DNA of 64,000 nt from Lewinella sp. W8 (GTDB lineage Bacteria > Bacteroidota > Bacteroidia > Chitinophagales > Saprospiraceae): contig NZ_SNAQ03000003.1 of the NCBI RefSeq assembly GCF_004375085.3, positions 124,001 through 188,000 of the forward strand, written 5' to 3'. Position 1 is the stretch's first letter. Each line of letters opens with the position of its first letter. The notes under the pieces are model-generated. The model was not told where the DNA came from, did no database searches, and saw nothing but the letters and a program-made list of their open reading frames with translations. Below, piece by piece: positions 34,575-39,692 of this stretch. Position numbers and translations under genes: made by a program.

Positions 34575-34982
34575 ATGCCTGTATCTCTACGTTCATTATT
34601 CCTTGGCCTGCTGTTGCTCCTGCTGGCCTTCCCCGCACAGGGTGCCATGTTGGCCATCGCCACGCCCGTCACCCCCGCCGAGGCACCCGCCGCTACGGAG
34701 CAGCTTCTCAACCTGAACCGGCAGGCCCTGGAACAACAACTGGGGCGTAAACTGACCTTCAAGGAACGCCTGGCGCTGGGCGCCACCAAACGAAAACTGC
34801 GCCAGGAACAACGGCGCGCGCAGAAAGGAAAGGCCAAAAAGGGAAAGAAGAAAGGCTTCGGCATCTTTGGCTTCGTCCTCGGACTGGTGGGCCTGATCCT
34901 GGCCGGCATCCTCCTGAGCGTCATCCTGATCGGTTCGCTGGCCATTGTTGGCGTGATCTTCGTCTTTGCCCTGCTGTTTTAG
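34575..34982 (+). CDS. Small exported/membrane protein, paralog of the 19004 gene
   Basis: 135 residues: signal peptide (about 1-24), LNRQALEQQLGRKLTFKERLALG, a lysine/arginine-rich stretch (RRAQKGKAKKGKKK), and one or two C-terminal transmembrane helices (about 96-135). The LGRKL-F-ER-L motif, basic stretch and helix order match the protein at 19004-19492. A TAGCTTTA element lies about 60 bases upstream. Function unknown. Confidence 0.7.
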   Translation: MPVSLRSLFLGLLLLLLAFPAQGAMLAIATPVTPAEAPAATEQLLNLNRQALEQQLGRKLTFKERLALGATKRKLRQEQRRAQKGKAKKGKKKGFGIFGFVLGLVGLILAGILLSVILIGSLAIVGVIFVFALLF

Positions 34983-35151: not shown

Positions 35152-35181
35152 TTGCCGTTTTCAGATTAGGACCTATCTTAG
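35152..35181 (+). promoter_or_regulatory. trp operon promoter
   Basis: TTG (35152-35154), 19 bases, then TATCTTAG (35174-35181), fitting TTG-N19-TAnnTTTG with one mismatch in the -7 element. Predicted transcription start is about 35186-35190, at the start of the leader peptide. Confidence 0.6.
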
Positions 35182-35185
35182 CGCC

Positions 35186-35245
35186 ATGCAAACGATGACC
35201 AACAAAAACTGGTGGTGGCTGCAGCGTACTTTCCGAGTAACCTGA
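35186..35245 (+). CDS. trpL: Tryptophan operon leader peptide
   Basis: A 19-codon frame, ATG at 35186 to TGA at 35243-35245, with three consecutive TGG codons (35210-35218) in its middle (NKNWWWLQRT). A second ATG at 35195 could be the true start if transcription begins near 35187. Tryptophan is the rarest amino acid, so three in a row ahead of trpE, with an overlapping terminator/antiterminator, identifies a classical attenuation leader. Ribosome stalling on the Trp codons would free 35233-35242 for antiterminator pairing. Confidence 0.88.
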   Translation: MQTMTNKNWWWLQRTFRVT

Positions 35246-35310
35246 TGCGGTCCGTTTGCCAATTGCAAAGAAACTTTAAGCCCGTCGGTTACTCCGGCGG
35301 GCTTTTTTTA
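35231..35310 (+). terminator. trp attenuator (terminator with competing antiterminator)
   Basis: Terminator: 10-bp stem AGCCCGTCGG (35279-35288) with CCGGCGGGCT (35294-35303), loop TTACT, followed by six or more T. Antiterminator: CCGAGTAACC (35233-35242, at the end of the leader frame) pairs with GGTTACTC-CGG (35287-35298), removing the terminator's left arm and loop. The leader stop codon at 35243 directly abuts the first antiterminator arm, so a ribosome that reaches the stop masks it and termination results. Confidence 0.88.
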
Positions 35311-35375
35311 TTCCCGTAGGAGTAGTCGAGTAAATTCTCTTCATTTTGTCTTTTCCCCTTACAACTTCCCGGACG

Positions 35376-36776
35376 ATGAACATCAAGGTCAACAGCAGAC
35401 GACTGACCGCCGATCAGCTGACGCCGGTCATGCTGTACCTGTCCGTCCGTGACGAATTTTCGGACCCGGTATTGCTGGAGTCCAACGAAACCCGCGACAA
35501 CGAGCATTATTACTCCATCGTCGGTCTGGAAACCCTCGCCAGTTTTCGGGTCACCGAAGGCGTCATTAAGCGTAATATTCTGGGGGAAGCCCTACCCGGA
35601 GAGACGGTCAGCGACGTAGATGCGGTGTCCCAAAGCCTGCACACCTTCCTGTCGGACTTTAAACTCGACTACACCCACGCTGACCCCCTGGTCAAGTCCT
35701 TCAACGGCCTGATTGGTCACACCAACTTTGAGGGCGTGCAGTATTTCGATACCCTGAAGTTCAGTAACGACCAGGTTCTGCGGTCGCCGGACCTACGGTA
35801 CCACCTCTACCGCTTCATCCTCGTCTTTCACCACTACCGCGATGAGCTCCTGATCACCGAAAATTTACCGGAGGGCGAGGAGAGCAGGATGGAAGAAGTC
35901 ATTGCGGCCATTCGTCGGGGTGGGGGAGTTCACCCCTTCCGGCGCCACGGCGCGGAGAGTAGCAACCTGACTGACGAGGAGTACAAGGAACTGGTGGCCC
36001 GTGGCAAACACCACTGCCAGGTGGGCGACGTGTTCCAAATCGTCCTGAGCCGGCAGTTTCAGCAGGGATTCCGCGGCGATGAGTTTCAGGTGTACCGGGC
36101 GTTGAGGAGTATTAACCCCTCACCGTATCTTTTCTACTTCGATTACGGAGATTACCGTATCATGGGCTCCAGTCCGGAGGCCCAGATGGTGATCCGGGAG
36201 GGCGTGGCCCGCCTCAACCCCATCGCGGGAACCTACCGCCGGACCGGAGACGACGCCAAGGACCGGGCCGCCACGAAGGCCCTGCTGGAAGACCCCAAAG
36301 AAAACGCCGAGCACGTCATGCTGGTCGATCTGGCGCGCAACGACCTGAGTCGGCACACCAAAAACGTGCGGGTGAAGAGCCTGCGGGACGTCCACTACTA
36401 CAGCCACGTCATTCACCTGGTGAGCACCGTAGAGGGCGAATTGCACGAGGAGGGACAGGCCGTCAGAATCTTCGGCGACACCTTCCCGGCGGGAACCCTT
36501 TCGGGAGCCCCCAAGTACCGGGCCATTGAGCTGATCAACGAATACGAGAACCAGCAACGCGGTTTTTACGGCGGCGCGATCGGGTTCATCGACTTTGCGG
36601 GGGGCATGAACCAGGCCATCCTCATCCGGTCCTTCTTTAGCCAGGACAACCAGCTGTTCTATCAGGCGGGCGCCGGCATCGTGGCGGCCTCTAACGCGGA
36701 CAGCGAATGCCAGGAGGTCTACAACAAACTCGGCGCACTGACCAAGGCCATCGACAAGGCCGAAACCTTCCTGTAA
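35376..36776 (+). CDS. trpE: Anthranilate synthase component I
   Basis: 466 residues from the ATG at 35376 (the frame is open from a TTG at 35346, inside the leader). The N-terminal feedback-inhibition motif PVLLESNETRDN is intact. The chorismate-binding domain shows FQIVLSRQF, MGSSPEAQMV, RLNPIAGTYRRTG, DLARNDLSR, GTLSGAPKYRA and GGAIGFIDFAG. With TrpG it makes anthranilate from chorismate and glutamine, the first step of tryptophan synthesis. Expression is set by the attenuator just upstream and the enzyme by tryptophan inhibition. Confidence 0.95.
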   Translation: MNIKVNSRRLTADQLTPVMLYLSVRDEFSDPVLLESNETRDNEHYYSIVGLETLASFRVTEGVIKRNILGEALPGETVSDVDAVSQSLHTFLSDFKLDYTHADPLVKSFNGLIGHTNFEGVQYFDTLKFSNDQVLRSPDLRYHLYRFILVFHHYRDELLITENLPEGEESRMEEVIAAIRRGGGVHPFRRHGAESSNLTDEEYKELVARGKHHCQVGDVFQIVLSRQFQQGFRGDEFQVYRALRSINPSPYLFYFDYGDYRIMGSSPEAQMVIREGVARLNPIAGTYRRTGDDAKDRAATKALLEDPKENAEHVMLVDLARNDLSRHTKNVRVKSLRDVHYYSHVIHLVSTVEGELHEEGQAVRIFGDTFPAGTLSGAPKYRAIELINEYENQQRGFYGGAIGFIDFAGGMNQAILIRSFFSQDNQLFYQAGAGIVAASNADSECQEVYNKLGALTKAIDKAETFL

Positions 36777-36807: not shown

Positions 36808-37407
36808 ATGAAGGTTTTAATCCTTGATAATTACGACAGCTTCACCTACAACCTGGTGCAGTACGTCGAAGAAGAACTGGGCCACTCGATTGACGTTTTC
36901 CGCAACGACGAAATTGATCTTGATCGGGTGGGGGAATACGATTTGATTATCCTCAGTCCCGGTCCGGGAGTGCCCAGCGAAGCGGGCATCATGCCCGCCC
37001 TCATCAAGCAGTACGCCCGGGAGAAGGTGATTTTCGGGGTGTGCCTCGGGCACCAGGCCATTGGGGAAGCCTTCGGGGCCTCGCTGATTAACCTCGACCA
37101 GGTGCACCACGGCATCGAAACGGAAATGCAGCGCACGGACGGTGACGATCCGATTTTTTCGGAGGTCCCGGACCACTTCAACGCCGGGCGCTACCACAGC
37201 TGGGTCATTGATCCGGCAACCATGCCCGAGGAACTACTCGTCACCGCCACGGGAGAATTCGGGGGAATCATGGCCCTGCGCCACCGGGAGTACCCCGTTT
37301 TTGGGGTACAGTTTCATCCCGAAAGCATCATGACGGAACACGGACGCCTCATGATCAGGAATTTGCTGAACTTTGCCCGGCAACGGAGCACCACGGCTGC
37401 TGCCTGA
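36808..37407 (+). CDS. trpG: Anthranilate synthase component II (glutamine amidotransferase)
   Basis: 199-residue class I glutamine amidotransferase. The triad is visible as GVCLGHQAIGEAFG (Cys about 77) and FHPESIMTEHG (His/Glu). The start MKVLILDNYDSFTYNLVQY is typical of TrpG/PabA. It delivers ammonia to TrpE, encoded 31 bases upstream. Adjacent trpE favours anthranilate rather than aminodeoxychorismate synthesis, though dual use with PabB is possible. In most relatives trpD, trpC and trpF follow; here they do not. Confidence 0.92.
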   Translation: MKVLILDNYDSFTYNLVQYVEEELGHSIDVFRNDEIDLDRVGEYDLIILSPGPGVPSEAGIMPALIKQYAREKVIFGVCLGHQAIGEAFGASLINLDQVHHGIETEMQRTDGDDPIFSEVPDHFNAGRYHSWVIDPATMPEELLVTATGEFGGIMALRHREYPVFGVQFHPESIMTEHGRLMIRNLLNFARQRSTTAAA

Positions 37408-37702: not shown

Positions 37703-38914
37703 ATGAAAAATCCAGGCATCGACGTCGATGAGCGGGGATATTACGGCCGCTTTGGCGGGGCCTACATTCCCGAAATGCTGCACCCGAACATTGAAGAATT
37801 GAGGGCCAACTACCGGGAAATGACCGCCGATCCTGCCTTCAAAAAAGAGTTTGATGCGCTGTTGCGCGACTACGTGGGTCGGCCCAGTCCGCTTTACTAC
37901 GCCAAGCGGCTCAGTGAGCATTATGGGGCGAAGGTCTACCTGAAGCGCGAGGATCTGAACCACACCGGTGCGCACAAAATCAACAACACCATCGGCCAGA
38001 TCCTGCTGGCCCAGCGACTGGGGAAAACCCGGATCATCGCCGAGACCGGTGCGGGGCAACACGGCGTGGCCACGGCCACCGTTTGCGCCCTCGTCGGACT
38101 GGAGTGCATCGTCTACATGGGGGAAGTGGACATCGAGCGCCAGGCCCCGAACGTGGCCCGGATGCGGATGCTCGGCGCCGAGGTGCGCCCCGCCCGCAGC
38201 GGCTCCAAAACCCTGAAGGACGCCACCAACGAAGCGATTCGCGACTGGATCAATAATCCCGAAAACACCCACTACATCATCGGCTCCGTGGTCGGCCCCC
38301 ATCCCTATCCGGATATGGTGGCCCGCTTTCAGTCGGTGATCTCGGAGGAAACCAAATGGCAGCTTAAAGAAAAGGAGGGACGGGAGCACCCCGATGCCGT
38401 CATCGCCTGCGTGGGCGGGGGCAGTAACGCCGCCGGTGCTTTCTACCACTACCTGAACGACGAGCGCGTCCGGCTCATCGCCGTCGAGGCCGCCGGACTC
38501 GGAGTGGATTCCGGAGAATCGGCCGCCACCAGCGTGCTGGGCACGGAAGGCATCATCCACGGAAGTCGTACGTTGTTGATGCAAACCGACGACGGGCAAA
38601 TCGTGGAGCCCTACAGCATTTCCGCCGGACTGGATTACCCGGGCATCGGACCACTCCACGCCTTCCTGATCGACTCCAAACGAGCGGAAGCCATCAGCGT
38701 CACCGACGAGAAAGCCCTGGAGGCGGCCCTCTTCGTCACCCGCACGGAGGGCATCATTCCCGCCCTGGAAACGGCCCACGCCTTTGCGGCCTTCGAGCAG
38801 CTGGAATACGGTCCGGAGGACGTCATCGTCGTTTGCCTGAGCGGCCGGGGAGACAAGGACCTGGCCACCTTCACCAAATATCTTGACCAACTAAAGGACC
38901 GCGATCATGAATAG
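37703..38914 (+). CDS. trpB: Tryptophan synthase beta chain
   Basis: 403 residues from the ATG at 37703 (37682 is an alternative seven codons upstream). The open frame continues further upstream, but that part is translated mobile element and is excluded. Landmarks: [12 protein letters not shown], the PLP lysine in [13 protein letters not shown] (Lys92), [14 protein letters not shown], and GGGSNAAG for phosphate binding. It condenses indole with serine. It overlaps trpA by eight bases. Confidence 0.95.
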
Positions 38915-39692
38915 ACTCACCCAACTCTTTCGGTCCGGCACCCCCGACCTGCTCAACGTGTACTTCACGGCGGGTTACCCCCGGCTGGACAGTACCGTGC
39001 CCATCATCACCAGTCTGGCGGCGGCCGGGGCCAACCTCATCGAAATCGGCATGCCCTATTCCGATCCGATGGCCGACGGCGAAACCATCCAGCGGAGCAG
39101 CATGCGGGCCCTGAAGAACGGAATGACGCTCGACCTCCTGTTCGAGCAGATCACCGAAGCCCGTCGGCAGACGGAAATTCCCCTCGTCATGATGGGCTAC
39201 TACAATCAGGTGATGCAGTACGGTCCGGAGCGCTTCGTATCCGCCGCCGCGAAGGCCGGCGTGGACGGACTCATCCTCCCGGATTTGCCCCTGCACGAGT
39301 ACCGGCAGGACTTCCGCCAGCTGGCCGAGGCCGCCGATCTGCAGGTCAGCTTCCTGATCACGCCCCAGACCAGCGAGGCCAGGGTGCGGGAGATCGGCGC
39401 GGTGAGCACTGGTTTCATTTACGTGGTGAGCAGCAGCAGCATTACGGGCAAGAGCGGCGGAATCACCGACGCGCAACAAGCTTATTTTGCCCGCATCAAC
39501 GCCCTGGATTTGCCCCAGCCAAAACTCATCGGGTTCGGCATCAGCGACGCGGCCAGTTTCCGCACGGCCTGCGCCTACGCCGACGGAGCCATCATCGGCA
39601 GCGCCTTCATCCGGGCGCTGGCCGGACGCGAGGATGACGTAGAAAAAGCCACGCGGGAATTCGTGGAGGGCATCCTGCAACCGGTGGCCTGA
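38907..39692 (+). CDS. trpA: Tryptophan synthase alpha chain
   Basis: 261-residue TIM-barrel protein with [19 protein letters not shown] (catalytic Glu and Asp), DLPLHEY, and IGFGISDAA. It cleaves indole-3-glycerol phosphate to indole, channelled to TrpB. Start overlaps the trpB stop, and its own stop overlaps the miaA ATG (TGATG), so translation is coupled through three genes. Confidence 0.95.

Follow-up and report, generated by a model that had tools for sequence, protein, structure and literature searches.

This analysis concerns a regulatory element upstream of trpE in Lewinella sp. W8. The DNA analysed, referred to here as the window, is a stretch of 64,000 nucleotides (nt) from contig NZ_SNAQ03000003.1, numbered from its first base. 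All features of the element are on the + strand. Judged from the window and its relatives, the element very probably controls the trpE-trpG-trpB-trpA operon by ribosome-mediated attenuation of transcription, and its leader peptide is probably leaderless. Note that an earlier account, made from the letters of the window alone (the sequence-only reading), had proposed a tryptophan (Trp) attenuator at this place. Its coordinates were right to about one base.

The sequence, together with comparison of relatives, establishes the leader open reading frame (ORF) with its Trp codons and the terminator. It likewise establishes the alternative pairing, which covaries in the family. The leader ORF, trpL (MQTMTNKNWWWLQRTFRVT; 35186..35245, stop codon included), starts at ATG 35186 and has 19 codons. 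Three tandem TGG codons, at 35210..35218, form the putative sensor, and WW or WWW is conserved before trpE. Both the length of the leader and the three tandem Trp codons had been claimed earlier, and are borne out. Downstream, an intrinsic terminator, AAGCCCGTCGG-TTACT-CCGGCGGGCTT, was identified at 35278..35304 from the sequence, a terminator scan and folding. The loop is TTACT and a T run is present at 35303..35309. Hence, the hairpin and T run of the sequence-only reading stand, but the stem has 11 pairs, not 10; 8 of these are G-C. In the 701-base region scanned, there were 2 terminator-like sites, compared to 0.9 expected, the other being weaker and on the minus strand.

Folding also identifies a competing structure. 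Arm 2 of this antiterminator (CCGAGTAACC, GATG, GGT) is at 35233..35251 and overlaps the leader stop codon. Arm 3 (GCC, CGTC, GGTTACT, CGG) is at 35280..35297 and is made of the terminator 5' arm, the loop, and the beginning of the 3' arm; here, family covariation of the helix agrees with folding. At the core of the helix are CCGAGTAACC (35233-35242) and GGTTACTCCGG (35287-35297). The addition of GATG/CGTC and GGT/GCC lengthens the antiterminator, in folding, to 17 pairs. The arms are those previously proposed, except that the second had been extended to 35298, one base too far. As also proposed, the stop codon (TGA, 35243-35245) abuts the first core arm, which ends at 35242. Finally, a 1:2 (protector) hairpin is predicted by folds at 35217..35252.

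From this anatomy, we infer the start site, ribosome stalling and the response to tryptophan. Transcription would begin at, or about one base from, the A of ATG 35186. A ribosome would load on the 5'-terminal ATG and trail RNA polymerase. If charged tRNA-Trp were sufficient, the ribosome should reach the stop codon and place its footprint over arm 2. With arm 2 covered, the 3:4 terminator would form and transcription would stop near 35304-35309. If charged tRNA-Trp were short, the ribosome would stall at the Trp codons, the 1:2 hairpin would be opened, and arm 2 would be free. In this state, arm 2 would pair with arm 3, consuming the terminator 5' arm and loop, and polymerase would enter trpE. 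Should translation not occur, the 1:2 hairpin would keep arm 2 and the terminator would win. The suggestion that stalling at Trp frees the arm, and that full translation masks it, fits this anatomy and is supported.

The folding energies for the window are as follows. The terminator stretch (35258-35311) folds at -21.2 kcal/mol (z = -4.1) and 1 of 200 shuffles was as good. RNA downstream of a ribosome stalled at the Trp codons, with the terminator still incomplete, corresponds to 35229-35300. This antiterminator stretch folds at -22.1 kcal/mol (z = -2.2), a value reached by 6 of 200 shuffles. The layout has 17 pairs, with arm 2 as CCGAGTAACC-T-GATG-C-GGT and arm 3 as GCC-CGTC-GGTTACT-C-CGG. 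The untranslated leader (35186-35311) forms the 1:2 structure and the terminator (-45.0, z = -3.4). In this fold, the 1:2 structure sequesters Trp codons and arm 2 alike.

A DNA search of 60 genomes gave matches in the genus only (20 of 60, including the genome of the window). Regions upstream of trpE were collected in three sets: 21 genus genomes (window included), 87 other Saprospiraceae, and 75 named Bacteroidota records. The family set represents 87 of 92 non-congeneric genomes with TrpE. The five left out are G150, which has no upstream DNA, G081, G112, G117 and G131. The named set is 80 loci minus five of the window's genus. Note that the family and named sets overlap by at least three leaders, since those of L029/L120, L030/L130, and L032/L143 are identical in each pair. 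We counted as a leader any ATG-started ORF of 6-50 codons that contains W.?W and lies no more than 480 nt before trpE. Such Trp-rich ORFs occur in 21/21 genus genomes, 82/87 other Saprospiraceae and 64/75 named Bacteroidota; 21, 79, and 61 of these, respectively, contain WW. The reverse strand control gave 4/183 (0, 1 and 3 in the genus, family and named sets) and dinucleotide shuffling, with 20 shuffles per locus, gave about 3%. One of the 64 named matches, L058, is probably false, and lies inside an upstream gene.

The geometry of the leader is similarly conserved. A terminator is present downstream in 166 of 167 leader loci. From the last Trp codon to the start of the terminator there are 48-66 nt in the genus, 47-77 nt in the family (median 57), and 47-72 nt in the named set (median 58). 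The equivalent distance in the window is 59 nt. In 20 of 21 genus genomes, 18 or 24 nt separate the last Trp codon from the leader stop (39 nt in L196), and arm 2 is therefore at or beside the stop. For annotation, a simple rule (a short Trp-rich ORF, and a terminator 47-77 nt past its final Trp codon) recovers the element before trpE at 167 of 183 loci.

Sixteen loci have no leader ORF by our definition. For two of these (L040 and L144), the DNA available upstream is too short. A third, L033, has a GTG-started WWW ORF with one unreadable codon. In L030 and L130, apparently one genome, the leader is at -509, outside the 480 nt limit. In L086 and L099, a Trp leader is found some 1.4 kb before trpE, which may be explained by another trp gene being placed first. 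For the remaining nine loci, no Trp leader was found (in L136, L139, and L160, the search was limited to 480 nt).

We also assessed the alternative pairing in relatives. In a duplex test, the RNA segment that separates Trp codons and terminator was paired with the terminator, and compared to 100 dinucleotide shuffles of the first partner. The mean z was -1.5 for 21 genus genomes, -2.5 for 82 family leaders and -1.7 for 63 named leaders, with p <= 0.05 in 58 of the 82 and 24 of the 63. Covariation was examined in a MAFFT alignment of 82 Saprospiraceae, with 16 consensus pairs and 1082 cells; controls were pairs slid by 1-3 columns and 200 row shuffles. In the family, 77.2% of antiterminator cells are paired, compared to 29.7-48.6% when slid, although the consensus pairs derive from the same sequences and so are favoured over the slid controls. 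Changes on both sides occur in 14 of 16 pairs (6-13 when slid). Furthermore, there are 75 compensatory cells, compared to a row-shuffle mean of 31 and maximum of 54. These data support a mutually exclusive antiterminator, apparently conserved by covariation, in Saprospiraceae. The 1:2 hairpin is strong in relatives: mean z compared to shuffles is -2.5 in the family, -2.7 in the named set and -0.9 in the genus, and z is below -1 in 72/82, 56/63 and 11/21 cases, respectively. Relatives had been set beforehand as a test of the proposed attenuator. Both conserved Trp codons and mutually exclusive stems were found in them.

In addition to the way that consensus pairs were chosen, several results weigh against an attenuator of this design. 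Taken alone, the 1:2 hairpin of the window is no better than shuffles (z 0.2 to 0.4). At -25.6 (35231-35311), the complete terminator exceeds the antiterminator (-22.1) in stability, and the switch must therefore be kinetic. Within the genus, the antiterminator duplex test is modest, with 8 of 21 genomes at p <= 0.05. In the family, row shuffles are still 72.7% paired on average (maximum 74.1%) compared to the 77.2% observed. Genus covariation is uninformative, since most columns do not vary and two arm 2 layouts are mixed; the 8 compensatory cells equal the maximum in shuffles (8). The genus cells are 75.0% paired, compared to 24.2-47.8% when slid.

We turn now to the start site. The window has a TTG, resembling a -33 element, at 35152..35154. 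After 19 nt, this is followed by a -7 element, TATCTTAG, at 35174..35181 (read by eye; consensus TAnnTTTG). Hence, the promoter claimed by the sequence-only reading is present at 35152-35181, and is of Bacteroidota type. The TTG is variable in the genus, and a sigma-70 promoter scan finds no promoter here. Start-site maps of F. psychrophilum (PMC9723704) and F. johnsoniae (PMC6847099) place the -7 element at -12 to -5, the latter study allowing a gap of 4 or 5 nt from element to start. On this basis, a TAnnTTTG motif 12 nt before the ATG would put the start on the A, at 35186, or within a base of it. By eye, and allowing C at the first position, 20 of 21 genus genomes have the -7 element 12 nt upstream of the leader ATG. 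These are 18 of 19 loci (the spacing is 13 nt in L008), L194, and L196, which has C for the first T. Where several ATG codons are in frame, we took the one before a Gln or His codon; in L004, L007, and L015 longer in-frame starts exist upstream.

The 12 nt spacing was also sought across the genome of the window. For this, we used 424 kb of contig C33 (the window and L198-L215) and simple ATG ORFs of at least 100 codons. The motif TAHHTT peaks exactly 12 nt before ORF starts, at 11 of 283 ORFs. The next best offset has 5 and the reverse-strand mean is 0.7. There is a broad second rise about 26-35 nt before ORF starts. In the window itself, TAHHTT-N6-ATG occurs 9 times, compared to 2.0 expected. 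We take the 12 nt class to be a real minority class of leaderless genes in this genome. For comparison, leaderless mRNAs account for 5.5% of those in F. psychrophilum (PMC9723704), and 5' untranslated regions (UTRs) of less than 10 nt for about 3.7% in B. thetaiotaomicron. Two counts are less favourable. A stricter automatic scan, demanding 5 of 6 consensus positions, finds the element 12 nt before the leader ATG in 11 of 21 genus genomes, elsewhere in 5, and nowhere in 5. In addition, the full TAHHTTTG is 12 nt before only 1 of 283 ORFs (and 14 nt before 2 of 283).

A different start would change the leader and not the attenuator. In this case, the peptide would begin at a second ATG, 35195, leaving a 5' UTR of 9 nt, or another promoter would lengthen the leader. 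The second ATG is in frame, and 7 of 21 genus genomes have a second in-frame ATG before the Trp codons, albeit at differing codons. A longer leader is consistent with the other Saprospiraceae where, according to the best-scoring element of the automatic scan, spacing is 24-35 nt for 32 of 82 loci and 12-15 nt for 14; no element is found in 21. Conversely, it is the first ATG, with its 12 nt spacing, that is kept in 20 of 21 genus genomes, and the second ATG is not. Furthermore, leaderless-type spacing is enriched in the window's genome. We thus consider either alternative start to be rather unlikely. A leaderless trp leader peptide, with transcription predicted to start at or within a base of ATG 35186, is probable. 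This is in line with the leaderless or near-leaderless peptide foreseen by the sequence-only reading, given the 12 nt spacing in 20 of 21 genomes and the two flavobacterial maps. Among the named loci, the automatic scan places the -7 element at 12-16 nt in 19 of 64 cases. For 15 of these, spacing is exactly 15 nt, and the predicted 5' UTR would be only some 3 nt long. They are Tenacibaculum and Chitinophaga-type loci, and include L034, L036, L038, L039, L054, L061, L070, and L075.

The element could have a further role. Thus, in addition to acting in cis, the terminated leader RNA of about 120 nt, or the peptide, might act in trans on trpD-trpC-trpF. These genes are outside the trpE operon and, according to Pfam, are clustered on another contig (G000:C77:229719-230465, L197). 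The rnTrpL of Sinorhizobium meliloti acts in trans on trpDC (PMC7298713). The unlinked trpD, trpC and trpF, for which no Trp leader was found, are much like the arrangement described there. However, the predicted duplex between the leader and trpDCF RNA is not significant (-64.7 compared to -59.0 +/- 3.4 for 30 shuffles, with a minimum of -65.7), and we consider action in trans improbable.

It is also conceivable that the Trp-rich ORF arose by chance, and that the hairpin is the terminator of an upstream gene or a constitutive leader terminator. A near-identical stem, CCGTCGG...CCGGCGG, is found in two congeners, at L020 and L023 (the G011 match and the second G020 match), without trpE or a Trp leader. 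The stem by itself is therefore a common terminator in the genus, and we dropped these two matches. Nevertheless, the Trp-rich ORF, the spacing and the alternative pairing are all conserved far above chance, and the nearest upstream + strand ORF listed ends at 34982, 296 nt before the hairpin. Hence, coincidence is highly improbable. Least credible is an incidental ORF in an operon controlled by a protein- or tRNA-binding leader: TRAP-like and T-box leaders occur in other phyla, but the Trp codons are conserved with fixed geometry, no Rfam family, T-box included, scores above its threshold in the window (no search was made for TRAP sites), and T-box is absent from the 23 matches of a permissive Rfam scan.

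The proposed attenuator resembles known systems. In E. coli, the leader peptide of the trp attenuator contains tandem Trp codons, the RNA forms 1:2, 2:3, and 3:4 pairings, and the distance between Trp codons and terminator is similar. The window shares the tandem codons and this distance, and the same three pairings are predicted for it. There are also differences: the window leader is not led by a Shine-Dalgarno sequence, and arm 3 is the terminator loop plus parts of both terminator arms. The corresponding Rfam model, Trp_leader (RF00513), scores 19.9 bits on the window (E = 0.1), missing the cut-off of 41. More generally, Rfam finds nothing in the whole window at the gathering threshold. 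The 23 matches of the permissive scan are weak, most are over the terminator, and none is above its own cut-off.

Attenuation of trp genes in Bacteroidota is not new. The motif 'Bacteroid-trp' (RF01692) is in Table 1 of Weinberg et al. 2010, as a likely cis-regulatory motif of Bacteroidetes, although the main text does not use the word tryptophan (PMC2864571). Rfam labels RF01692 a tryptophan peptide leader, and its similarity to the E. coli leader has been discussed for Flavobacterium psychrophilum (PMC6414381). For the same organism, clues for leader-peptide attenuation before amino-acid operons are reported, with trp unnamed in the main text (PMC9723704). Hence, the novelty attached to the element by the sequence-only reading, which regarded such attenuation as best known from Proteobacteria, was overstated. 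The window element and Bacteroid-trp have in common the phylum, a position before trp genes, a leader with Trp codons and, in the model alignment, a hairpin pairing Trp codons with downstream RNA. They differ in that the pairs modelled by RF01692 leave out the terminator.

RF01692 (cut-off 49 bits) has no match in the window or its genome, with E up to 10, and none of 20 upstream loci are over the cut-off. Among 120 Saprospiraceae genomes (TrpE was matched in 95), 1 is over the cut-off and 4 have matches at E <= 0.001 with stricter filters; by position, all four are just upstream of trpE. In the named genomes, 7 of 75 are over the cut-off and 12 of 75 are at E <= 0.001. We compared positions by hand. 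Matches over the cut-off are on the leaders before trpE in L057, L062, and L102, and on the leaders 1.4 kb before trpE in L086 and L099. Similarly, the match in Saprospiraceae genome G061 coincides with its leader. The match of L082 is at a site where no WW ORF was seen. We regard the window element as a diverged relative, missed by the RF01692 model, and not as a tested member. The last of the seven named genomes, that of L053, has its match over the cut-off at G185:C212:5077-5211. This is not on the trpE contig and is possibly a second attenuated trp locus.

Leaderless leaders are known elsewhere. In S. meliloti, trpL RNA begins with the trpL ATG, and only trpE(G) is attenuated, with trpDC in a separate operon (PMC7298713). 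Both the leaderless start, and the separation of trpDC from the attenuated genes, are like the window, for which the leaderless start is predicted. However, S. meliloti is an Alphaproteobacterium with three trp operons, and the trans roles are shown for that organism and not for the window. In mycobacteria, leaderless polycysteine ORFs sense an amino acid through ribosome speed (Canestrari et al. 2020, as cited in PMC9031893 and PMC9094748). The amino acid there is cysteine, and the phylum is different. Among the matches listed in searches of open-access literature, we found no leaderless Bacteroidota trp leader and no Saprospiraceae attenuator. The window element thus seems to be a further case of a catalogued kind, with its apparent start at the first RNA base as the notable feature. 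Bacteroidota mRNAs are without Shine-Dalgarno sequences (PMC6847099), so it is of interest how a leader ribosome that must follow polymerase is loaded in time. Such loading could be tested cleanly on a leader peptide that is leaderless and has a genus-wide promoter spacing.

In some loci, the leader and terminator are repeated before trpE. Fifteen loci have two or more Trp-rich ORFs. We dropped five of these as tandems (L063, L065, L116, L151, and L156), since the extra ORF had no terminator, had a weak terminator, or overlapped the leader. The ten others have tandem leader-terminator modules: three in L182 and two in L184, L044, L053, L060, L069, L072, L077, L084, and L097. Every terminator starts 49-65 nt past the last Trp codon. 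The first leader contains IWLPWWGLL, or similar, in L044, L053, L069, L072, L077, and L084, and IWLWWGNTFLC in L060 and L097. No -7-like element was seen between modules in the seven loci examined by sequence, which suggests that the modules may act in series. Note that the same motif search found no element before the first module in 4 of the 7 loci (L182, L184, L060, and L072), and the evidence for action in series is weak for this reason. Serial leader ORFs are known from another system, the tandem attenuators of Salmonella mgtCBR.

These observations can be placed in a broader scheme, to which we give an even chance. Briefly, nearly all Bacteroidota trp operons would share one old and fast-diverging attenuator, and the Rfam model would detect less than a tenth of its occurrences. 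Several lineages would have moved to leaderless or near-leaderless initiation, the window being a leaderless form, and others would have multiplied the element into serial modules. If so, a 5'-terminal AUG would load the sensing ribosome upon emergence, with promoter spacing of 12 nt in Neolewinella and of 15-16 nt in Chitinophaga-type loci and Tenacibaculum. In the lineages with serial modules, a single transcript would carry two or three leader-terminator units.

The genome containing the window is 6.18 Mb and belongs to the Lewinella/Neolewinella group, being Neolewinella-like. Among the 80 named loci listed, the closest TrpE is from Neolewinella lacunae (81% identity). From 35376, the gene order is trpE-trpG-trpB-trpA-miaA, with which Pfam agrees for all five. 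The trpE gene (35376..36776; PF00425, PF04715) encodes anthranilate synthase component I. It is followed by trpG (36808..37407; PF00117 and position after trpE), for the anthranilate synthase glutamine amidotransferase. Tryptophan synthase beta and alpha are encoded by trpB (37703..38914; PF00291, before trpA, start codon chosen by eye) and trpA (38907..39692; PF00290). All four genes are on the + strand. By eye, no Trp leader is apparent in the gap between trpG and trpB. A search for other amino-acid leaders, in the 424 kb of genome, gave five pattern matches, of which only the trp leader looks real. We also rejected a Trp leader before the trpD cluster; in L197, W.?W occurs in a single short ATG ORF, which is internal to the trpD region. 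At the same locus, TAGCTTTG is 13 nt before the trpD ATG and, going by this spacing, trpD may be nearly leaderless.

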